25,265 nucleotides of DNA from Gemmatimonadota bacterium. GTDB lineage: Bacteria > GCA-2686955. Location: the NCBI GenBank assembly GCA_002686955.1, contig NYZA01000111.1, positions 1 through 25,265 of the forward strand, read 5' to 3'. The translations under genes were made by a program, and so were the position numbers. Under the pieces are notes generated by a model, which saw only the letters and a list, made by a program, of their open reading frames with translations, had not been told where the DNA came from and did no database searches. This document shows positions 6,127-18,214 of the stretch, in pieces (within the stretch, counting starts at the first letter, position 1; each line of letters begins with the position of its first letter).

Positions 6127-7241
6127 GCGCATCATCGGCCCCCTCACTTCTTGATCGTGTTCACGACAAGATCGTGGAGGGGGAACGCCTCAACCGAGAC
6201 GAAGCGGTTTCCCTGTTCCAGCTCGACGATCTCACGGCCATCGGTGCCTTGGCCGACATGGTGCGCCGGCGGCTCCACCCTGAGCCGATCGTTACCTACA
6301 TCGTCGATCGCAACATCAATTACACGAACGTCTGCGACATCTACTGCAAGTTCTGCGCATTCTTCCGCCCACCCGATCACAATGAATCGTACCTGCTCCC
6401 GCACGAGCGGGTTTTCGAGAAGATCGAACGAACCCTGGAACAGGGCGGTGTGCAGATCCTCCTCCAGGGTGGCGTTCACCCAGAGCTCGGAGTCGAGTAT
6501 TTCGAGGAGCTCTTCGAGGCCATCAAGGCCCGATACCCGATTCACATCCACGGTCTCTCCCCGGTCGAGATAATCGGCGCGGCCGAAGTTTCAGAAGTGT
6601 CAGTCTCCGAGGCCCTGCGTCGCCTCGCCATCGCCGGTCTGGACTCGATCCCCGGGGGAGGTGCGGAGATCCTCGCCGAGCGGGTTCGGCGGAAATACGG
6701 GCGCCGGAAGGGCGGACCGGATAAGTGGCTCGATGTCATGGAAGAGGCTCATCATGCGGGACTGCGCACGACAGCGACCATGATGTTTGGGGGACTCGAG
6801 ACATTGGAGGAACGGATCGAGCACCTGGAGCGGGTCCGCAACCTGCAGGACCTCACGGGCGGTTTCACGGCCTTCATATCCTGGACACTGCAGCCCGACA
6901 ACACCCTTCTCGAGGGTAAAGTGCGCAAGGCCTCGGCCCACGAGTATTTGAAGATGCTGGCGCTTTCGAGGCTCTTCATCGACAACATCCGGAATTTCCA
7001 GGTGTCGTTCGTGACAATGGGCGCCAAGATCGGACAGACGGCGCTCAGCTTCGGGGGCAACGATTTCGGCTCGCTGATGCTCGAAGAAAACGTCGTGGCA
7101 GCCGCTGGCACGGAATGCCTGGTCACACAGGACGAGATCGAACACTTGATCAAGGCCACCGGACGCTTCCCTCGCCGGCGGAACATGTTTTACGAAATCA
7201 TCGACGGTCGGGGAGCGGTGATGGAAGGAGAGTCCCGGTGA
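6123..7241 (+). CDS. mqnC: Cyclic dehypoxanthine futalosine synthase (radical SAM)
   Basis: MqnC cyclises dehypoxanthine futalosine to form the naphthoquinone precursor, a later radical-SAM step of the same futalosine pathway as the preceding gene. The product is 372 aa. The cluster-binding motif is Cys71, Cys75 and Cys78 (NYTNVCDIYCKFCAF), directly after VDRNI. LLQGGVHPELG, SIPGGGAEILAERVR and the QPDNT segment match the MqnC group and separate it from MqnE. The ATG at 6123 overlaps the mqnE stop (ATGA), and the mqnC stop itself overlaps the GTG of the next gene, so translation of the three genes is probably coupled. Confidence 0.93.
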   Translation: MSASSAPSLLDRVHDKIVEGERLNRDEAVSLFQLDDLTAIGALADMVRRRLHPEPIVTYIVDRNINYTNVCDIYCKFCAFFRPPDHNESYLLPHERVFEKIERTLEQGGVQILLQGGVHPELGVEYFEELFEAIKARYPIHIHGLSPVEIIGAAEVSEVSVSEALRRLAIAGLDSIPGGGAEILAERVRRKYGRRKGGPDKWLDVMEEAHHAGLRTTATMMFGGLETLEERIEHLERVRNLQDLTGGFTAFISWTLQPDNTLLEGKVRKASAHEYLKMLALSRLFIDNIRNFQVSFVTMGAKIGQTALSFGGNDFGSLMLEENVVAAAGTECLVTQDEIEHLIKATGRFPRRRNMFYEIIDGRGAVMEGESR

Positions 7242-8926
7242 CGGATCCGAAAGACCCTCTCGAGCGCGTCTCGGGAATCCTCGAGGAGCTCGCGGCGAAC
7301 GCCGGCGGCGAGATCGAGCACGATGGTGCCGAGGCGCTCGCCTCGAGCCATCGATTTCGCCTGCCCACCGATGCCACCAGATTCGAAACGCTTTACCAGG
7401 TGACGCAAGCCGTCACCTCGATCCTCGACCCGGTCGAACTCCGTGAACGAACCCTCGACCTTCTGCTCGATGCGATCGAGGCGGACCGGGGAACGATCTT
7501 TGTCGTCGATCCCGACACCGGTCGCCTGGAACCGGCCGCCACACGGAACATCGACAACGAAACCCTGGAAGACGCAACCTGCTACAGCAATAATATCCTT
7601 CAGAAAGCGGGGGGGGAGCTCCCGGTTATCCTCTCCTACGACACGAGAGGCGACACGCGATTCAACCGATTTCAATCGGTAGCGACACTTGAAATCCACA
7701 GCTTCATGTGCGTGCCGATCCGGCATGACGACGATCTGATCGGCACGGTCTATGTCGATTGTCGTTCCGGCCGAAAGCGCTTCACGGAGGACGATCTGAA
7801 TTTCCTCGTCGCCTTCACCAACATTGCCGGAGCAGCACTCCGCAATGCAGCGTCCCACCAGGATGTGCTTCAGGAGAATCGCACGCTCAAAAAGGAGATG
7901 TCGGAGCGTTTCGTCTTCGAGAATCTGATCGCATCTAGCGCGGCGATGCAGCCGGTGGTCGACCTCGTCCGCCGCGTCATGGAGTCATCCGTCACGGTGC
8001 AGATCGCCGGCGAAACCGGAACGGGCAAGGAGGTCATCGCCCGGGCGATTCACCACAATGGAGTGCGCGCATCGCAGCCCTTCGTCGCCATCAACTGCGC
8101 GGCCATGCCGGAAACGCTGGTGGAATCCGAGCTCTTCGGTCACCGCCGGGGAGCGTTCACCGACGCAAAAGAGAACAAGAAGGGACTCTTCGAGGCCGCC
8201 GACCAAGGAACGATATTTCTCGACGAGGTGGGCGAACTCTCACCCGCGGTTCAAGCGAAGCTGCTGCGGGTGCTGCAGGAAGGCGAGGTCACCCGGATCG
8301 GTGAGAGTGATCCGCGTCATGTAGACGTCCGGGTGATCAGCGCGACCAACCGTGACCTCGAGAACGAAGTCGCCGCGGGGAGCTTTCGAGAAGATCTCTT
8401 CTACCGCCTAAATGTGGTTGTTGTGAAGCTCCCGCCACTTCGAGAGCGTAGAGAAGATATCCCGCTTTTGATGACTCACTTCGTCGAGAAGTACTCGCAA
8501 CGGCACAACAAGAAGCCGGCGGGAATCGACCCCTCGATCGTGACCTCTCTGACCGCTTTCGACTGGCCTGGAAATGTGCGCGAGTTGGAGAACGAAGTCG
8601 AACGCATGGTGGCCCTCTCGCGAGATCGCGAGCTGATCACTCCGGCACTGCTCTCCGCCAAGCTGAACGGCCCGAGCGAGCCGACCGAGGAGCGCGGGCA
8701 ATGCGGCACCCTTCTTCTCCCGGGCGACCCACGCCCACTCAAACTCGAGGGGATGGAGGGGGAGAGGGAGCTCAAGCCTCGTGTCGATCTTTTCGAAAAG
8801 GCATTGCTCCTGAGAGAGCTCGAACTACACAAGGGGAACAAGACGAGCACAGCGAAAACACTCGGACTCTCGAGAGCCGGCCTGAACAAGAAACTGGTCA
8901 AGCTCGGCGTCCTGGGCAATGGATAG
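7238..8926 (+). CDS. Sigma-54-dependent transcriptional activator with N-terminal GAF domain
   Basis: The product is 562 aa from GTG at 7238, chosen because AAGGAG lies about 7 nt upstream and the codon overlaps the mqnC stop (GTGA). A GAF sensory domain spans about residues 45-205 (TLYQVTQAVTSILDP to TNIAGAALRNA), followed by a linker helix. The AAA+ sigma-54 interaction domain spans about 227-470, with Walker A GETGTGKE (258-265), Walker B FLDE (327-330) and arginine-finger region RLNVV/LRERREDI. The C-terminal Fis-type HTH spans about 535-556 (TAKTLGLSRAGLNKKL). The sigma-54-contact loop reads GAFTDA (305-310) rather than GAFTGA. There is no receiver domain, so a ligand or protein signal through GAF is likely. 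Its position after mqnC invites a redox or quinone-related signal, but nothing in the sequence proves that. Confidence 0.9.
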   Translation: MTDPKDPLERVSGILEELAANAGGEIEHDGAEALASSHRFRLPTDATRFETLYQVTQAVTSILDPVELRERTLDLLLDAIEADRGTIFVVDPDTGRLEPAATRNIDNETLEDATCYSNNILQKAGGELPVILSYDTRGDTRFNRFQSVATLEIHSFMCVPIRHDDDLIGTVYVDCRSGRKRFTEDDLNFLVAFTNIAGAALRNAASHQDVLQENRTLKKEMSERFVFENLIASSAAMQPVVDLVRRVMESSVTVQIAGETGTGKEVIARAIHHNGVRASQPFVAINCAAMPETLVESELFGHRRGAFTDAKENKKGLFEAADQGTIFLDEVGELSPAVQAKLLRVLQEGEVTRIGESDPRHVDVRVISATNRDLENEVAAGSFREDLFYRLNVVVVKLPPLRERREDIPLLMTHFVEKYSQRHNKKPAGIDPSIVTSLTAFDWPGNVRELENEVERMVALSRDRELITPALLSAKLNGPSEPTEERGQCGTLLLPGDPRPLKLEGMEGERELKPRVDLFEKALLLRELELHKGNKTSTAKTLGLSRAGLNKKLVKLGVLGNG

Positions 8927-9813: not shown

Positions 9814-10523
9814 GGTCTCTCACCTCGGCGCTCGATCGAAGCGCGGGTCTGGCGATGGGAATTCGGGTCGGGGAGGTCGCGAACCGCAAGGCGCGTACCA
9901 GAAGTCCCGCCACTCGTGCATCTCAGTCGGGCGCCATCGGTGGGCCCTTTTTGCCCTTCCGCTTAGGCGGATACTGACACTCTCGACGGAAGCGGTCCCG
10001 AAGACAAGCCGGGACATCGAGAAGTCTGGGGCCTGGGATTTACCCCACCGAGATGGGCGATTTCTCGCAATCCAGCAAGGATGCGGCAAGATCCGCCGCC
10101 TTCTCCGCAGTTGACTTCCTCGGGAACGAGATAGCGTATTTCAAGTAGAGGTCCTCTCCGGCACTGGCCCAGGACCGCAACCGCAGCGGGACCGGGGGCG
10201 GATGCCCCGCCGGCGCCGACGCGTGGAGAGCCCGCGACGAATGCGGAATATCTGCCCAACGAAGAACGCCCAACGGAGATTCGAATGGGGACCCCACGGC
10301 GCATGGCGAAGCGCGTATTGGGTGGCGGATTCTGGGAGTCTGCTATGCTTGCGTTCGGCTCACGCCGTCCCGCGTGGAACGCGATCGATCGATTGCTTTC
10401 GTGGCACCGGTGATGGCCCATGAGACATGGGGGCGCGACATGCGGGGCGTGAATGGCTGTTCGGGATCGACGCACGAGGGTGCAAGCGATTCGGGGGCTG
10501 CGGTCGGAGGGAGGCATCACCAA
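9814..10523. other. About 700 bp without a convincing gene; possible promoter for the kinase operon near its end
   Basis: No intact gene is supported. On the minus strand two out-of-frame fragments (about 10190-10043, then 10089-9820) have somewhat protein-like composition and may be remains of a coding region, but I cannot assign a family. Near the right end, TGCTATGCT at 10341-10349 could be an extended -10 box for the downstream kinase-regulator operon; no good -35 lies at 17 bp. A small CCGC/GCGG hairpin is at 9958-9969. Confidence 0.4.
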
Positions 10524-12092
10524 GTGAACAGCCATCCGATCCTGGTTGTCGACGACGAGCCATGTATCCGAGGGTTGCTCGAGGACACTCTGAGCGAGGC
10601 CGGATACGAGGTGGACTCCGCCCAAAGCGGCGAAGTGGCGCTCGAACGATTCCAAGAAACCCGCTATCACGTCGTTCTCCTGGATCTGACGATGCCGGGG
10701 ATGGGTGGAATCGAGGTGCTGGAACGGATCCGAGAGATCGACGACTCGGTCCTGTTCATCGTCGTGACGGCGGACTGCGATACCGACGCTCTGCTCGAAT
10801 CGATGCGAAAACGTGTGGTCGACTACCTGACCAAGCCTTTCTTGATATCCACGCTGCTCGACTCGGTGAGCAGTGCCTGCCAGGCCTACGACAAGGCCCG
10901 GCGGAACCGGGAGCGCGTCGAGGAGGTCGAGGAGGAGAACCGTTGCCTCCTTAGAGAGGGAACCGAGCTTCGGGAGCGTGTGAGCGAAGTGGAAAGCCAG
11001 AACGACGCGATCCTGAGGCACATGAACTCGGGACTGGTTTTTCTCGACACCCAGGGAACGATCCGATACGCGAATCCACTGGCTGCCTCGATCCTCGAAA
11101 CCGAAACAGCCAAGCTGCTCGGGCGGGCGTATGCGGAGGTGTTCGCCCTGAACGCCAAAGATCGCGAAGCCGTAAGAGCGGCATTGAGCTGCGGCACGGC
11201 CCAACGCAACGTGGAGGTCACGCTCCGGCTCAGCGGGGAGGGCTCGAAGCCGATCTCGATCAACGCGGCCCGAGTGCCGGGACCTGAGGACTCCACCCGC
11301 GGTGTCGTACTCGTTTTCGTAGATCTGACGCACCGGAAAGAGGTCGAAGCGCGCGTGCGACGGCTCGATCGCCTCGCCGCGATGGGAGAGCTGGCGGCGG
11401 GAATCGTCCATGAAGTCCGAAACCCTCTGGCGGGGATCCAGACAGCGGCGGAGCTGCTCGATCGCCGACTGGAAGCGGGCGACCACAACCACCGCTACAC
11501 CACCGTGGTCATGGAAGAAGTGGGGCGCCTCGATCGGCTATTGAACGATCTGTTGGAGTACGCGCGCCCCGGAGCCCGGGCCATCCGAGAGGCCAAGCTC
11601 GGACCGGTCGTCCGGCGCGCGGTGCAGATGGTGGAAGGAGCCGCCAAGGAGAAGGGCGCCCGCCTGAGCGTCGAGCTGCCGGCGCACCTTCCCCCCTTGC
11701 CGATCGATCAAGACAAGATCGAATGCGTCCTGATCAACGTCATTCGGAATGCGATCGACTCGGTGAGAAACGAAGAGGGATTCGTGGAGGTATCGGTGAG
11801 GCTCACGAGCGATCAAAGCTCCGTCAGAATCGAAGTCGTAGACAACGGAGGCGGCATCGATCCTCGCGATCTCGAGCGCCTGCTGCGCCCTTTCGAGACC
11901 ACCAAGGCGCACGGCACCGGTCTGGGACTCCCGATCTCCGCCAGAATCGTGGAAGCTCACTCCGGCCGATTCGACCTGCACGGCAGGCCCGGTCTCGGCT
12001 CCGTCGCCACGATCGAACTGCCGATGCACGCACCCGGCGGCGAATCGGGCAGTCAAGAACTCACAGCTTCGGCGTCAGGGGAGGACCGATGA
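10524..12092 (+). CDS. Sensor histidine kinase with N-terminal receiver and PAS domains (NtrB/AtoS-like output)
   Basis: The product is 522 aa from GTG at 10524, chosen because GGAGGGAGG lies just upstream and the receiver domain starts five residues in; the frame is open to 10374 but those residues look untranslated. Receiver domain 5-118: acidic pair Asp10/Asp11, phospho-acceptor Asp54, Thr82 and Lys104 are all present. A charged coiled-coil linker covers about 125-162. PAS domain about 163-272. HisKA carries the phospho-histidine His296 (GIVHEVRNPLAG). The HATPase has the N-box (INVIRNAIDS, Asn409), DNGGGI (440-445) and GTGLGL (464-469). No transmembrane segment is seen, so the kinase is cytoplasmic and is itself an addressable target of another kinase. 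It overlaps the regulator gene by ATGA, marking the two as a cognate pair. Confidence 0.9.
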   Translation: MNSHPILVVDDEPCIRGLLEDTLSEAGYEVDSAQSGEVALERFQETRYHVVLLDLTMPGMGGIEVLERIREIDDSVLFIVVTADCDTDALLESMRKRVVDYLTKPFLISTLLDSVSSACQAYDKARRNRERVEEVEEENRCLLREGTELRERVSEVESQNDAILRHMNSGLVFLDTQGTIRYANPLAASILETETAKLLGRAYAEVFALNAKDREAVRAALSCGTAQRNVEVTLRLSGEGSKPISINAARVPGPEDSTRGVVLVFVDLTHRKEVEARVRRLDRLAAMGELAAGIVHEVRNPLAGIQTAAELLDRRLEAGDHNHRYTTVVMEEVGRLDRLLNDLLEYARPGARAIREAKLGPVVRRAVQMVEGAAKEKGARLSVELPAHLPPLPIDQDKIECVLINVIRNAIDSVRNEEGFVEVSVRLTSDQSSVRIEVVDNGGGIDPRDLERLLRPFETTKAHGTGLGLPISARIVEAHSGRFDLHGRPGLGSVATIELPMHAPGGESGSQELTASASGEDR

Positions 12093-13498
12093 GTTCGTCC
12101 GTTCTGGTCATCGAGGACGATCTTCCCCTGCTAGAAGTCATTGAGAGCGTGTTGCGGGACGACGGCTACGCGGTCACCACCGCGTCAACCGGTCGTGAAG
12201 CAGGTGCGCAATTCAGCCGCGAAGTGTTCGAGCTGGTTCTTCTCGATGTGGGGCTTCCCGACGCCGATGGCGTGGAACTTCTCAATCGCTTCAAGGCGGA
12301 ACGCCCGCAGAGCGTGATCGTGATGATGACCGCGAACGCCGAGGTCAAGGTCGCCGTGGAGTCGATGCGGAATGGGGCCTACGACTTCATCGAGAAGCCG
12401 TTTCGCCTCGATCGCTTCCGCACGAGCGTGCGGCGAGCGACCGATCACGCATCGGGGCAAGAGACGGTTCGCCGAATGGTGCAGCAAGCCGTGGCGAGCG
12501 AGCCCTTCATCAGCAAGAGCCACGGCATCCAGGAGCTGCTGCGCCAGGTCGACCAGGTCGCCAGGGTTGGAGGTGCAACCACGGTATTGATTCAAGGAGA
12601 AACCGGCACCGGAAAAGAACTGATCGCCAAACGCCTGCACGCACTGAGTCCACGCGCCGGAAGCCCATTCTTCGCCCAGAGCTGCGCGAACTTCACCTCG
12701 ACGCTACTCGAAGATCAGCTCTTCGGTCACAGCAAGGGTGCATTCACGGAAGCCCATACCGAACAGCGAGGCCTACTGGCGCTGGCGAAAGACGGGACAC
12801 TATTCCTCGATGAGATCGGAGAGATGCCCCTCGCTCTGCAAGCCAAGATCTTGCGGGTGCTCGAGGAGCGGAAATTCACGCGACTCGGCGACCACCAGGA
12901 GGGGCGCGTCGAGGCCCAGATCATCTCGGCCACCAACCGAGACCTCAAGAAGATGGTCTCCTCGGGAGGATTCCGAAAAGACCTGTACTACCGCCTCGGA
13001 ATCGTTCTGCTCTCGATTCCGCCCCTTCGAGAACGCCGTCAAGACATCCTGCCCCTTCTGGATTACTACCGAAAGCTGTATCGCGCTCAGTTCGGGGTCG
13101 AAATCGACGGGTTTACCGATGCGGCCGCGGAGCTGCTCGAGCAGTACGACTGGCCCGGCAACGTCAGAGAGCTCCGCAACCTCATCGAGAGGCTGGCCAT
13201 CATCTGGAGCGGAGGCCCTCTCATCGATTTCACGCACGTTCGTCCCTATCTCGATTCCGACCAGATCGCCCGCATCGATCTTCCTCCGCTGTTGGTCGGC
13301 GAGAACGGCCACATGGCCGAATCGAATCCGAGGCTCGTGCCGCTTCGCACCGTGCAGGATGAGCACATCGTTTCGATCTACCGCTATGCACAGGGCAACA
13401 AGGCCGAAACCGCACGTATTTTGGGGATCACGCGGCAGACCGTGCAGAAGCGTCTGGCCCAGCTAGACCGCGAAGGGCGGCTTCCGGCGCTGGTTTGA
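12089..13498 (+). CDS. NtrC-family sigma-54-dependent response regulator
   Basis: The product is 469 aa from the ATG at 12089, which overlaps the kinase stop (ATGA) and has GGGGAGG upstream. Receiver domain 4-118: Asp10/Asp11, phospho-acceptor Asp53 (LLDVGLPD), Thr81 and Lys103 (EKPF). The AAA+ domain spans about 140-375, with Walker A GETGTGKE (170-177), Walker B LFLDE (238-242) and DWPGNVRELRNLIERL. The sigma-54 contact loop reads GAFTEA (217-222). A Fis-type HTH ends the protein (about 437-458, KAETARILGITRQTVQKRL). The expected action is phosphorylation by the preceding kinase, oligomerisation and ATP-driven opening of sigma-54 promoter complexes. A strong sigma-54 promoter lies 155 bp after its stop codon, making that promoter the prime candidate target. 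Confidence 0.92.
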   Translation: MSSSVLVIEDDLPLLEVIESVLRDDGYAVTTASTGREAGAQFSREVFELVLLDVGLPDADGVELLNRFKAERPQSVIVMMTANAEVKVAVESMRNGAYDFIEKPFRLDRFRTSVRRATDHASGQETVRRMVQQAVASEPFISKSHGIQELLRQVDQVARVGGATTVLIQGETGTGKELIAKRLHALSPRAGSPFFAQSCANFTSTLLEDQLFGHSKGAFTEAHTEQRGLLALAKDGTLFLDEIGEMPLALQAKILRVLEERKFTRLGDHQEGRVEAQIISATNRDLKKMVSSGGFRKDLYYRLGIVLLSIPPLRERRQDILPLLDYYRKLYRAQFGVEIDGFTDAAAELLEQYDWPGNVRELRNLIERLAIIWSGGPLIDFTHVRPYLDSDQIARIDLPPLLVGENGHMAESNPRLVPLRTVQDEHIVSIYRYAQGNKAETARILGITRQTVQKRLAQLDREGRLPALV

Positions 13499-13540
13499 GC
13501 GCCGCGCACACGCGCCAAATAAAGTGACGGTGGTAGAAGA

Positions 13541-13558
13541 CCGCTCACGCCGGAGCGG
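13541..13558 (+). terminator. Possible hairpin after the kinase-regulator operon
   Basis: CCGCTC (13541-13546) pairs with GAGCGG (13553-13558) around a 6-nt loop, 42 bp after the regulator stop. No T-run follows, so this would have to be a weak or Rho-assisted terminator. Position is the main support. Confidence 0.25.
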
Positions 13559-13653
13559 ATGAGAACTGATCGGCGGGGCTGAGAGCGGGCGTCAAGTTTC
13601 TTGCAATCCGCTATGCACCAATGCGTTACGAGGTCACCCCAGTGAATGGAGGG

Positions 13654-13670
13654 CTGGCACGCGCGTTGCT
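13654..13670 (+). promoter_or_regulatory. Sigma-54 (RpoN) promoter upstream of the FliA/WhiG-type sigma factor
   Basis: CTGGCACGCGCGTTGCT matches the consensus YTGGCACGrNNNTTGCW at every fixed position except the weakly conserved r. The invariant GG (13656-13657) and GC (13668-13669) are exactly 10 nt apart, as required for the -24/-12 spacing. Transcription should start near 13680, leaving a leader of about 110 nt before the GTG at 13793. The upstream 150 bp back to the NtrC-type regulator gene is available for activator binding. Confidence 0.8.
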
Positions 13671-13792
13671 CAAGGGAAGGCGACGCGAAAACCGCTCACG
13701 TCCCCACCAGTTCTGATCGTCCATCCGCCCGGGACTTGCACCGACAAAAGGGCGATCGACATGGTCGGACCCACCAAGGATGAGAGGCCCTC

Positions 13793-14623
13793 GTGACCGC
13801 AAAGACCACGCAACCCAATACACCCGACGAAACCTGGATGCGCTTCTTCGCCGAACGGCGCTCCCAAGACCGCGACACGCTCGTGCTTCGCTACATTGGC
13901 CTCGTGCGCTACATCGTCAATCGGACGGCGGCCTCGCTTCCGCCATCGGTTTCGCGGGAAGATCTCATGAGCGTCGGCACATTGGGCCTGATCGCGGCGG
14001 TGGACCGCTTCGACGGGAGCCGAGGTGTCGCTTTCGAGACCTTCGCACGCCCGAGAATCTACGGCGCGCTCTTGGACGAGCTCCGCAGCCAAGACTGGCT
14101 TCCTCGCTCGCTTCGGCAGAAGGCCAAGAAAGTCGACGCCACATACCAGCGCCTGCAGGTGCGCAGAGGGATCGGAGTCACGGAGCACGATGTCGCTCAG
14201 GAGCTCGAAATCTCCGTGAAAGAGGTGCGTCTTCTTGTTTCGCAGGTGCTCGGCATGAGCTTCCAATCGCTTGACTCGGCGGTCTCGGAGGGGAATGACA
14301 ACAAGGAGATCCGCCTGATCGACACGATCGAGGACCGGCGGGCGCGAACTCCGATGAGTGAGCTCGCCACCAGGCAGCTCTCGGAGCTGTTGATCCAAAC
14401 CGTGAAAACCCTGCCGAGGCAGGAACGCCTCGTGATCATCCTCTACTACTACGAGCGACTGACCCTCAAGGAGATCGGCTCGATACTGCATCTCTCCGAA
14501 TCTCGCATATCGCAGATCCACTCCAAGGCGGTCCTCAAGCTACGCGGACGGATGCGCTCCGCCCGGGAAGACCATCGGATCCTCGCGCAGGAGCGAGTGC
14601 GAGAAAAAATGCGAGTTCACTGA
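13793..14623 (+). CDS. FliA/WhiG-type (sigma-28 group) RNA polymerase sigma factor
   Basis: The product is 276 aa, starting at GTG 13793 with a purine-rich GGATGAGAGG stretch upstream. Region 2 is about 30-100 (DLMSVGTLGLIAAVDRFD; FETFARPRIYGALLDELR), with the group-typical RSQDWLPRSLR following at 98-108. Region 3 is about 105-185 and region 4 about 200-255 (LTLKEIGSILHLSESRISQIHSKA). Region 1 is absent, as expected for group 3 sigma factors. These proteins direct polymerase to flagellar, motility or developmental promoters and are often held by an FlgM-type anti-sigma factor. No flagellar gene or FlgM-like ORF is seen here, so the regulon is open. A sigma-54 promoter precedes it, and htrA follows after 78 bp. 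Confidence 0.9.
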   Translation: MTAKTTQPNTPDETWMRFFAERRSQDRDTLVLRYIGLVRYIVNRTAASLPPSVSREDLMSVGTLGLIAAVDRFDGSRGVAFETFARPRIYGALLDELRSQDWLPRSLRQKAKKVDATYQRLQVRRGIGVTEHDVAQELEISVKEVRLLVSQVLGMSFQSLDSAVSEGNDNKEIRLIDTIEDRRARTPMSELATRQLSELLIQTVKTLPRQERLVIILYYYERLTLKEIGSILHLSESRISQIHSKAVLKLRGRMRSAREDHRILAQERVREKMRVH

Positions 14624-14701: not shown

Positions 14702-16189
14702 ATGAGTCTGGAACGTGGCAGGCGACGCTCACCGATGGTGGCCGCCCTCCTGATCAGCGGCGGCGGGTTCGGCGGCGGGGCGAGCCCGCTACTTTCAGCC
14801 GCCTCGGCGGCAACGACGACCGGCGACCGACACGCGGCCGAGGTCTTGAGCGACGCGGTGGCCTCCGCCGCCGAGACCATCCTGCCGTCGGTCGTGAACA
14901 TCAGCGCAACCCACATGGAGAAGGTCGACAAGCGCTTTCAGCACCCCTTCTTCATTCCCGGCATGGAAGATATGTTCCGCAGGCGCCTCGACGAGCTCCC
15001 CGACGAGCGCGAGGCGCGCTCGCTGGGCTCCGGTTTCTTCATCAGTGACGACGGATACATCCTCACTAACAACCATGTCGTGGAGGACGCCGACAACATC
15101 CTCGTGACGACCCATGACGAAAGGGAATTCGCGGCCGAAATCGTCGGAACCGACCCGAGCACTGACGTGGCCCTGCTGAAGGTTGAGCCGGAGGGTAAGA
15201 TCGTCCCAGCGAATCTGGGCGATTCCTCCTCGCTGCGGATCGGAGAGCTCGCGATTGCCGTCGGCAATCCCTTCTCCAGCTTCGCCGGAACGGTCACTCT
15301 GGGGATCATCAGCGCGAATGGACGTTCCTCCTTGCGCTTCGGCAGCACCTCCCCGTCGATCCAGGACTACATACAGACCGATGCATCGATAAACCCCGGT
15401 AATTCTGGGGGACCGCTCGCCAACATCCGGGGTGAAGTCATAGGAATCAACTCCGCCATCAGCTCCCCTTCCGGCGTCAACGTCGGAATCGGATTCGCCA
15501 TCCCGATCGGGCTCGCGAGGGAGATTCTCGACGACCTGAAGGAACACGGAGAGGTTCGGCGCGCCTTTCTCGGTGTGCACATCCAAGAGGTCGACGCGAA
15601 TCTCGCCGAGGCGTTGGGGCTCGATGGACCCCAGGGCGTGCTCGTCAGCGGCCTTCTCAATGACGGCCCCGCGGCCGAGGCGGGCATACTCGACGGCGAC
15701 GTCATCATCGAATTCAACGGGAGGCCAGTAGAATCGATCCCGAAGCTCCAACGAATGGTCGGGAGCTCGGAAGTCGGAACCAACGCCAAGGTCGTGGTGA
15801 TTCGGGACGGAGAACGGAAGCGTTTCAAAGTCGAGCTGGCGCTGATGAACAATGTTGTGGAGACCGAGTCGGAGAGCGCCGGATCGGACGGCGATCCGTG
15901 GATGGGCCTAGAGATCGTCTCTCTCGACTCCCCCGAGGCCAAGACGGCGAACATCGATGCGACCCGCGGCGTCATGATCGTCAGCGTGGAACCCGGATCT
16001 CCCGCCGCAAGGGCCGAACTGAGACCCGGATACGTCATCCAAAAACTCGGAGTGTTCGAGATTTCGGGACCGCGCGATTTCCGTGAAGCCCGAGGGGAAC
16101 TCGCGAAGGATGCGGGTGACCGCGCCATCGCGGTCTATGTGCGGTTGCCGGGCGGAGGCCAGCGGTATTTCGCGCTCGCGCCCCGGTAA
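14702..16189 (+). CDS. htrA: Periplasmic HtrA/DegP-family serine protease with two PDZ domains
   Basis: A 495-aa S1C protease that degrades or refolds damaged envelope proteins. The ATG at 14702 has GGAG at 14690-14693. An Arg-rich, then hydrophobic leader (about residues 1-37) suggests export. The catalytic triad is His125 (LTNNHVV), Asp155 (STDVALLKV) and Ser235 (NPGNSGGPL). PDZ1 starts near residue 285 (FLGVHIQEVD) and PDZ2 near 400 (WMGLEIVSLDS), ending with the protein. An acidic segment (ETESESAGSDGD) separates the PDZ domains. The TAA stop codon directly abuts repeat copy 2. Being placed between two sigma factor genes fits envelope-stress control, but no promoter in the 78-bp upstream gap stands out. 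Confidence 0.93.
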   Translation: MSLERGRRRSPMVAALLISGGGFGGGASPLLSAASAATTTGDRHAAEVLSDAVASAAETILPSVVNISATHMEKVDKRFQHPFFIPGMEDMFRRRLDELPDEREARSLGSGFFISDDGYILTNNHVVEDADNILVTTHDEREFAAEIVGTDPSTDVALLKVEPEGKIVPANLGDSSSLRIGELAIAVGNPFSSFAGTVTLGIISANGRSSLRFGSTSPSIQDYIQTDASINPGNSGGPLANIRGEVIGINSAISSPSGVNVGIGFAIPIGLAREILDDLKEHGEVRRAFLGVHIQEVDANLAEALGLDGPQGVLVSGLLNDGPAAEAGILDGDVIIEFNGRPVESIPKLQRMVGSSEVGTNAKVVVIRDGERKRFKVELALMNNVVETESESAGSDGDPWMGLEIVSLDSPEAKTANIDATRGVMIVSVEPGSPAARAELRPGYVIQKLGVFEISGPRDFREARGELAKDAGDRAIAVYVRLPGGGQRYFALAPR

Positions 16190-16275
16190 GGGTCCGCGCA
16201 AGATTAATTGTCATTTGGCATCCCATCTGCACCACATCTGGGCGCCACGTTGACAAGTTGTTCTTGCGCGGACCC
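16190..16275. repeat. Palindromic repeat element, copy 2 (short form, 86 bp)
   Basis: Both ends carry the same 14 bp inverted, GGGTCCGCGCAAGA, extended by near-matches to TTGTCA. The copy aligns to 4592-4770 over its whole length, except that the 92 bp between the CACATCT direct repeats of copy 1 is missing and one base is deleted in the left arm. It begins at the base after the htrA stop codon. Its right arm holds a perfect TTGACA (16250-16255) facing the downstream sigma factor gene. Confidence 0.85.
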
Positions 16276-16341
16276 TATGAGCTGCGCATGGCCAAACCAC
16301 CGCGCAAGTGATCCACAACTTGGGCCGATCAAACGGATGTG

Positions 16342-16360
16342 GGCCGGTGATGCGCCGGCC
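16342..16360. other. GC-rich hairpin in the leader of the RpoD-like sigma gene
   Basis: GGCCGG (16342-16347) pairs with CCGGCC (16355-16360) around a 7-nt loop, about 80 bp before the chosen start codon. It could shape the leader RNA; no T-run follows and no known riboswitch is recognised. Confidence 0.25.
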
Positions 16361-16439
16361 GACGTGAACCCCGCGCCATCGATTCGCCTCGGGCGTGCTC
16401 CGTGGCGCGGATCGCCCACATCTGTTGGGGTGGTGCAGC

Positions 16440-17297
16440 TTGGCCCTAAAAGACGGGACCGAAACCCGCGACGATTCCGCGCTCGACGCCTACCTACGCA
16501 CGATCTCCAGATTCCCCCTCTTGACGCGGGAGGACGAGATCGAGCTGGCCGAGCGGATACGTGAAGGGGATGAGGAGGCACTCGAGCGATTGGTTTTGGG
16601 AAACCTGCGTTTCGTGGTGAGTCAGGCGAAGATCTACTCCAAACAGGGGGTGCCGCTGGCCGACCTCATCAACGAAGGGAACGCCGGCCTGATCAAGGCG
16701 GCGAAGCGATTCGACGAGAAGCGGGGCTTCAAGTTCATCTCGTACGCGGTCTGGTGGATTCGACAGGCAATCCTGCAGGCTCTCGCCGAGCAATCGAGGA
16801 TTGTCAGAGTCCCGCTGAATCGCGTCTCGGTGCTCTATCGGCTCGGGCGGGCGTCTCAGAAGCTCGAGCAAGAGCTGCGTCGAGAGCCGACGGCGGAGGA
16901 GCTGGCCGCGCACCTCGGGTTGAGGGAGTCGGAGGTCTCCTCCACGCTGGTAGTCGCCAAGAGCCATGTGAGCCTTGATTCTCCTGGCACTGGGAACGAC
17001 GACGGTGGGCTCCTCGACGCGCTGGTCGACGATGATCAATGCGAAGCGGACGAAGATCTGATCGAGGCCGCGATGGCGCGCGAGATCGATGCGGCTCTCG
17101 GTGCACTCACAGAGCGCGAAGCCCGCGTCATTCGCCTCTATTTCGGCATCGGAGAATCGGACACCCAGACGCTCGAATCGATCGGTCGGGAGTTCGGTCT
17201 GACGCGGGAGCGGATCCGTCAGATCAAGCAGAAAGCGCTCGAGAAGCTTCGGGTGGTGGCGGGCGATCGGGAGCTCCAGCTCTTCCTGCAGCATTGA
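16440..17297 (+). CDS. Sigma-70 family RNA polymerase sigma factor (RpoD/RpoS-like)
   Basis: The product is 285 aa from TTG 16440, preferred because GGGGTGG lies 6 nt upstream; GTG at 16395 is in frame and would add 15 residues but has no Shine-Dalgarno. Region 1.2 is about residues 13-47 (LDAYLRTISRFPLLTREDEI). Regions 2.1-2.4 are about 48-125, with the near-invariant LRFVVSQAKIY, ADLINEGNAGLIKAAKRFD and FISYAVWWIRQAI. Region 3 is about 128-205, and region 4 about 215-275 (SIGREFGLTRERIRQIKQKALEKLR). There is no region 1.1 and no large non-conserved insert, so it is a group 2-like alternative factor rather than the housekeeping RpoD. It follows htrA and repeat copy 2 and precedes a LytM peptidase by about 60 bp. 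Confidence 0.88.
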   Translation: MALKDGTETRDDSALDAYLRTISRFPLLTREDEIELAERIREGDEEALERLVLGNLRFVVSQAKIYSKQGVPLADLINEGNAGLIKAAKRFDEKRGFKFISYAVWWIRQAILQALAEQSRIVRVPLNRVSVLYRLGRASQKLEQELRREPTAEELAAHLGLRESEVSSTLVVAKSHVSLDSPGTGNDDGGLLDALVDDDQCEADEDLIEAAMAREIDAALGALTEREARVIRLYFGIGESDTQTLESIGREFGLTRERIRQIKQKALEKLRVVAGDRELQLFLQH

Positions 17298-17356
17298 TCC
17301 GGTGCGGCCACTGTGGTAAACAGAGGGATTCGTGACCAGTTGGAGTTCGATCGATC

Positions 17357-18214
17357 ATGTGGCCGCATCATCTTCTTCGCGCAGCATTGAAACGCCTACT
17401 GCGGCGGGCCGTACCCGCTCTCGCTACGGCCCTGGCGCTGGGCTGTGTACTCTTGGGCGGCCTGCGTTTCGTGGTCTATTTCGCTGAGTTGCACGCCGAA
17501 CGAGCCGAGAATGACGCCCTGCACAACGCGCTCGACCAGGTCTGCGCGCAGGTGGCCGGGCTCGAGGCCGACTTGGGCGAAATGCGAGAAACGGAGCGCC
17601 GCATGCGGGTGCTCGCGGGTATCGAAGGGATCGACGGGGATATCCCTACGCCCGACGAAGATCCGGTTCCCAGTGCTCAGGGGGAGGACGAACGGGTCAG
17701 GATTCTGCGAACGAGCCTGGAGCGCACACGGCACAGCTCGAAGAAGCTCTCGACAGACATCGAGCAGGTCCACGAGAAACTCGAGCGCAACCACGAGAAT
17801 CTCGATCACGTGCCCTCGATCCTCCCCACTGACGGGTGGCTCTCCGCGGCCTACGGACGTCGCCGGGATCCCTTCACTTCCCGCGCCAGCTTTCATTGGG
17901 GAGTCGATATCGCCGCTTGGCCCGGCACCGAGGTCGTCGCCACTGCCGACGGCAAGGTCGTCTTCTCCGGACGGAACGGCGGCTACGGGAACCAGGTGAA
18001 GATCGATCACGGCAACGGATACGTGACCACCTACGCCCACAACAAGAAGAACCTCGTCAAGCGTGGCGCGCAGGTCAACCGAGGAGAGCCGATCGCTCTG
18101 CTGGGCTCCACCGGGCGTTCGACAAGCTCCCACGTTCACTACGAAGTCCATCTCGACGGCAAGAAGGTCAATCCGTGGCGCTATCTTCTGCCCGAAGACG
18201 CGGTCGTAGACTGA
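17357..18214 (+). CDS. Membrane-anchored M23 (LytM) peptidase
   Basis: A 285-aa cell-wall endopeptidase or regulator. A single membrane segment near residues 19-42 follows a basic N-terminus, anchoring it in the inner membrane with the rest in the periplasm. Residues 45-85 and 108-150 are charged and heptad-like, consistent with coiled coil. The LytM domain is about 165-275, and all zinc/catalytic positions are present: His180 and Asp184 (HWGVD), His228 (TTYAH) and His261 (SSHVHYEV). It therefore probably cleaves peptidoglycan cross-links, unlike degenerate activators such as EnvC or NlpD. GGAG lies at 17342-17345. The short gap after the sigma factor gene suggests co-transcription. Confidence 0.9.
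   Translation: MWPHHLLRAALKRLLRRAVPALATALALGCVLLGGLRFVVYFAELHAERAENDALHNALDQVCAQVAGLEADLGEMRETERRMRVLAGIEGIDGDIPTPDEDPVPSAQGEDERVRILRTSLERTRHSSKKLSTDIEQVHEKLERNHENLDHVPSILPTDGWLSAAYGRRRDPFTSRASFHWGVDIAAWPGTEVVATADGKVVFSGRNGGYGNQVKIDHGNGYVTTYAHNKKNLVKRGAQVNRGEPIALLGSTGRSTSSHVHYEVHLDGKKVNPWRYLLPEDAVVD

Follow-up and report, generated by a model that had tools for sequence, protein, structure and literature searches.

What controls a FliA/WhiG-type sigma factor gene, and what does its product control, when the gene lies behind a sigma-54 promoter next to genes for a sensor kinase and an NtrC-type activator? The stretch of DNA that raises this question (the window, 25,265 nucleotides) is contig C111 of a draft genome of 270 contigs and 4.28 Mb that is 84.5% complete. 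It was compared with G001, one other genome of the same phylum (both genomes are about 84% complete), and homologues were searched for in 386 genomes. We predict, with a probability of roughly 60%, that a dedicated two-component system activates a second FliA/WhiG sigma factor by way of sigma-54 and that the targets of this factor most likely overlap the FliA class.

The promoter element, CTGGCACGCGCGTTGCT, is at positions 13654-13670 of the forward strand, between the stop of the regulator gene (13498) and the GTG start of the sigma gene (13793), exactly where the first-pass annotation had placed it. Its GG (13656-57) and GC (13668-69) have the exact GG-N10-GC spacing, and 13 of the 13 defined positions of the sigma-54 consensus YTGGCACG-N4-TTGCW, as quoted in PMC2725144, are matched; the earlier description of the element as near-perfect and almost fully consensus was, if anything, too modest. 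The exact motif TGGCACG-N4-TTGC occurs once on the two strands of the 25-kb window, namely at this site, and when the 294 bases between the regulator and sigma genes were scanned with weights, none of 5000 Markov shuffles of this gap reached the score of the element. An rpoN gene is present above the model cut-off in both genomes (TIGR02395; 435 bits in the genome of the window versus a cut-off of 277). By sequence, spacing, conservation and the presence of rpoN, the element is confirmed as a genuine match to a sigma-54 promoter, and transcription of the sigma gene would be expected to start near 13681.

The conservation is seen in G001, which has an orthologue of the sigma gene that is 80-81% identical and the same gene order of regulator, sigma factor, HtrA, RpoS-like sigma factor and M23 peptidase, with AspS farther along. 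The two regulator-sigma gaps are 50% identical, and the promoter is their best-conserved 15-mer (12/15). In G001 the site reads TGGCATGCCAGTTGC (L039:1906-1920, one mismatch) and is 121 bases from the GTG start, versus 123 in the window. Thus, the -24/-12 bases, whose conservation upstream of orthologues had been proposed as a check, are indeed kept.

Could CTGGCACGCGCGTTGCT still be a chance sequence with no promoter function? The motif class TGGCAYR-N4-TTGC occurs 21 times in the genome of the window and 15 times in G001, compared to six and three times in a reversed control; because the genome-wide counts exceed the control (3.5- to 5-fold), the class is real in these bacteria. These exact-class sites are often found before flagellar and heat-shock genes, i.e., before flgB-flgC, flgF/flgG, groESL, dnaK and hsp20, as well as before an activator/prkA pair. 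What speaks for chance is that matches with one mismatch are as frequent as in the control (88 versus 92); the excess is gone at that level, and therefore only exact-class sites are to be trusted. With the site of the window being exact and its counterpart in G001 lying at the same distance from the gene, we consider a chance match very improbable.

The gene behind the promoter (13793..14623, forward strand, GTG start) encodes a 276 aa RNA polymerase sigma factor of the FliA/WhiG group with Sigma70_r2 and r4 domains. It scores 248 bits with the FliA_WhiG model TIGR02479 (cut-off 189.6); the WhiG equivalog NF004935 is its best match, yet at 260.6 bits it is under the cut-off of 343. The residues of regions 2.4 and 4.2 that are typical of the group are present in an alignment with E. 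coli FliA (6pmi), the closest structures (6pfv/6pfj) and the FliA of the same genome. Pfam matched no flagellar family in the 20 open reading frames scanned in the window, in agreement with the earlier remark that flagellar genes are absent from it. The genome itself is flagellated: it has flhA, flagellin genes and a canonical fliA in an flhA-flhF-flhG operon on contig C89. This position in the flagellar cluster is occupied by the C89 copy and not by the window gene, which is therefore a second copy.

The two sigma factors are 46% identical overall, and they are almost the same where the -10 and -35 elements of the promoter are read: regions 2.4 and 4.2 are DELRSQDWLPRS and SESRISQIHSKAVLKLR in the window factor versus DELRSLDWIPRS and SESRISQIHTKTILKLR in flagellar FliA. 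With DNA-reading regions so nearly equal, the window factor probably reads the same class of promoters, for which fliC provides the example in both genomes (TAAAG-N15-CCCGATGG upstream of the gene). The first-pass annotation had suggested that the cascade may govern something other than flagella; an extra FliA-type factor in a flagellated genome that has its own fliA would fit a separate program, but with nearly identical promoter-reading residues, an overlap with the FliA promoter class is at least as likely. A separate, nonflagellar program, be it a developmental switch or a response to envelope stress, in which the factor prefers promoters of its own and has targets distinct from those of FliA, is possible though doubtful. 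It would fit with the position of the gene outside the flagellar cluster and with the long branch of the factor in the sigma tree (0.94 changes per column), given that a flagellar FliA is already present, and there is a precedent in the sigma-28 of Chlamydia, which binds hctB and tsp alone (PMC12282069). The tree does not settle where the second copy came from; the window factor, the FliA of the same genome and the other sigma factors linked to NtrC-type regulators stand in an open fork.

The neighboring genes are a further point in favor of a separate program: HtrA, the RpoS-like sigma factor and the M23 peptidase, in a row at 14702-18214 of the window, are kept beside the sigma gene in both genomes. 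Four other genomes likewise have the HtrA and RpoS-like genes side by side, two of them (G135 and G338) together with M23, and no FliA gene was seen among the neighbors of the pair in other families. A neighborhood that occurs elsewhere in this way is not specific and says little about function; the three genes form a conserved group that does not depend on the FliA gene, and we rejected them as evidence on the cascade. Neither a FliA-type nor a conserved promoter was found upstream of the HtrA and RpoS-like genes; a FliA-type promoter was likewise not recognized upstream of the other neighbors of the sigma gene, and a scan of the whole window gave no conserved element. A scan for FliA-type promoters had been proposed as a way to define the regulon, and genome-wide it gave no enrichment: TAAA-N14-16-CCGATA had three and one matches in the two genomes versus nine and two in the control, and only fliC was convincing among the six matches to TAAA-N16-18-CCGATGG. 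The sigma gene itself is preceded by a TAAAG at position 13520, which was considered as part of a FliA-type promoter and rejected, as its -10 partner (CCGCTC) is weak.

Upstream of the promoter are the genes for the putative two-component system. The first (10374..12092, forward strand) encodes an AtoS-like sensor histidine kinase with the architecture REC-PAS-HisKA-HATPase (Pfam Response_reg, PAS_4, HisKA and HATPase_c); AtoS is its best NCBIfam model, with a score under the cut-off, and the true start of the protein may be downstream of the first GTG. The second (12089..13498, forward strand) encodes an NtrC-type response regulator with REC, AAA+ and Fis HTH domains (Pfam Response_reg, Sigma54_activat at 2e-61 and HTH_8). 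Its alignment has all of the catalytic motifs, including Walker A (GETGTGKE) and Walker B (FLDEIGEM). Pfam and NCBIfam thus confirm what the kinase, the sigma-54 activator and the FliA/WhiG sigma factor had been called from the sequence. The two genes overlap by ATGA, and the kinase is likely the partner of the regulator, which is 60% identical to its orthologue in G001.

In the cascade that we favor, the kinase would phosphorylate the NtrC-type regulator, and the regulator would bind upstream of the sigma gene and remodel the RNA polymerase that waits, with sigma-54, on the -24/-12 site. The sigma factor so produced would direct polymerase to FliA-type promoters, and the FliA promoter class, or a subset of it, would gain a second signal-controlled input. 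The candidate enhancer is an inverted repeat, CCGCTC-N6-GAGCGG, at 13541..13558 of the forward strand. It is about 105 bases upstream of the -24 box, and there is an extra GAGCGG half-site at 13583. By a rough hand estimate, about one repeat with 6-bp arms is expected by chance per such gap, and so it is the conservation that adds weight: the stretch of G001 aligned to it is a palindrome of equal length with paired letter changes (ACACC-N8-GGTGT). None of the other -24/-12 sites that were examined has an intact CCGCTC palindrome upstream.

Another enhancer-binding protein might act at the promoter, for example a flagellar master activator or the second sigma-54 activator of the window (7115-8926), with the adjacent kinase and regulator having other targets. 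This second activator is a NifA-like protein with a GAF sensor domain, and its gene is right after the menaquinone genes mqnE/mqnC. The genome has several sigma-54 activators and neighbors need not be partners; in addition, the sigma-54 loop of the window regulator is unusual, GAFTEA compared to GAFTGA in the G001 orthologue and GAFTDA in several relatives. Nevertheless, the regulator gene is directly upstream of the sigma gene in both genomes, as are NtrC-type regulator genes in three other genomes. Furthermore, the sigma promoter has at the usual distance neither the palindrome of the flagellar -24/-12 sites (CGGCA-N5-TGCCG) nor that of the heat-shock sites (TGCCA-N3-TGGCA), which suggests that it has an activator of its own, for which the adjacent regulator is the simplest candidate. 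The sequence therefore suits the adjacent regulator as the activator of the sigma promoter, and we consider another activator unlikely.

The best homologues of the window sigma factor outside the phylum are 40-47% identical and limited to few families among the 386 genomes. In three of the genomes, which represent two other families, an NtrC-type regulator gene, a -24/-12 site and a FliA-type sigma gene occur in the same order; the sites are TGGCATATTCGTTGC in G238 (p 0.004), TGGCACCACGGTTGC in G366 (p 0.0002) and GGGCACAAGGGTTGC in G135 (p 0.006). The compact two-step sigma cascade of the first-pass annotation is supported both by this recurrence and by the kept position and sequence of the promoter in G001. 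Each of the three genomes has another FliA-group gene adjoining flhA or flhF. In G366, a fliW gene near the sigma gene suggests that the factor of that genome might have a flagellar role. A fourth genome, G067, has an NtrC-type regulator gene upstream of the sigma gene with no convincing -24/-12 site (best score p 0.13), and the tree does not settle whether the window copy and the sigma factors of G135, G238 and G366 share an origin. As a tentative generalization, there may be a recurring cassette, in at least three families, in which an NtrC-type regulator and sigma-54 activate a gene for an additional FliA/WhiG sigma factor apart from the flagellar FliA, either as a second signal-controlled input to the FliA class or for a separate regulon.

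Sigma-54 promoters before fliA are classic and well known already (PMC2725144, PMC11242183). For example, the top-scoring RpoN promoter of G. sulfurreducens heads an operon containing fliA (PMC2725144), and in Vibrio, fliA belongs to the class II genes, being dependent on sigma-54 (PMC11242183). The present locus is like these in that a sigma-54 promoter and an NtrC-family activator are predicted to control a FliA-group sigma gene; the difference is that their fliA is among flagellar genes and encodes the flagellar factor, whereas the window copy is apart and has its own promoter and kinase/regulator pair. A second copy with such equipment, away from flagellar genes, is less usual. We take COG1191 to be the FliA group. 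In alpha- and gamma-Proteobacteria, the sigma genes for which control by sigma-54 is enriched include COG1191 (PMC12316311). The fliAL gene of the lateral flagella of Vibrio, Aeromonas and Plesiomonas also is a second FliA-type gene in its genome and is downstream of LafK or FlaK, which are sigma-54 activators (PMC11242183); however, it is part of a complete second flagellar cluster, and none was seen in the window.

The Rrp2-RpoN-RpoS cascade of Borrelia burgdorferi is similar in that a further sigma factor is driven by sigma-54 together with a response regulator of the NtrC type, but that factor is RpoS and not a FliA/WhiG member, and activation there is reported not to need a histidine kinase (PMC2940757). 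FliA/WhiG-group factors acting outside flagella include Streptomyces WhiG and Chlamydia sigma-28, and as noted above, the WhiG model is the best NCBIfam match, under its cut-off, to the window factor. Streptomyces WhiG is an example of a nonflagellar developmental switch. The Chlamydia sigma-28 gene is transcribed by sigma-66 rather than sigma-54 (PMC12282069), whereas the window sigma gene has a sigma-54 promoter and is in a flagellated bacterium. The comparison of two genomes thus presents a conserved sigma-54-to-FliA-group cascade in a little-known phylum, with the flagellar FliA set apart from a separately controlled copy. Should this copy read FliA promoters, the locus would be a clean example of two sigma inputs to a single promoter class; if it does not, the locus would be a nonflagellar use of the FliA group in a flagellated bacterium.

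The other exact-class -24/-12 sites display some patterns of their own. Those of the flgB-flgC and flgF/flgG operons (L131:3923-3937, L122:1767-1781 and L183:1748-1762) have the CGGCA-N5-TGCCG palindrome upstream, to which a flagellar master activator probably binds. The heat-shock sites are before groESL and dnaK in both genomes and before hsp20 in the genome of the window (L133:3590-3604, L175:3925-3939, L139:3216-3230, L172:3480-3494 and L164:2846-2860). These share the TGCCA-N3-TGGCA palindrome 56-150 bases upstream, with one mismatch at groESL of the window genome; exact copies number five and four in the two genomes, and two per genome are at heat-shock genes. Control of heat-shock genes by sigma-54 is reported for Planctomycetota and Bacteroidota (PMC12316311), and no report for the present phylum was found in the literature looked at. 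A further site, L130:3388-3402, is followed by an NtrC-family activator gene and then by a prkA-type serine kinase gene. Finally, a -24/-12-like site, TGGCATGGAGATTGC (L169:1999-2013), precedes, by about 170 bases, the gene for another sigma factor, of the RpoD type, on contig C129 of the window genome (G000).
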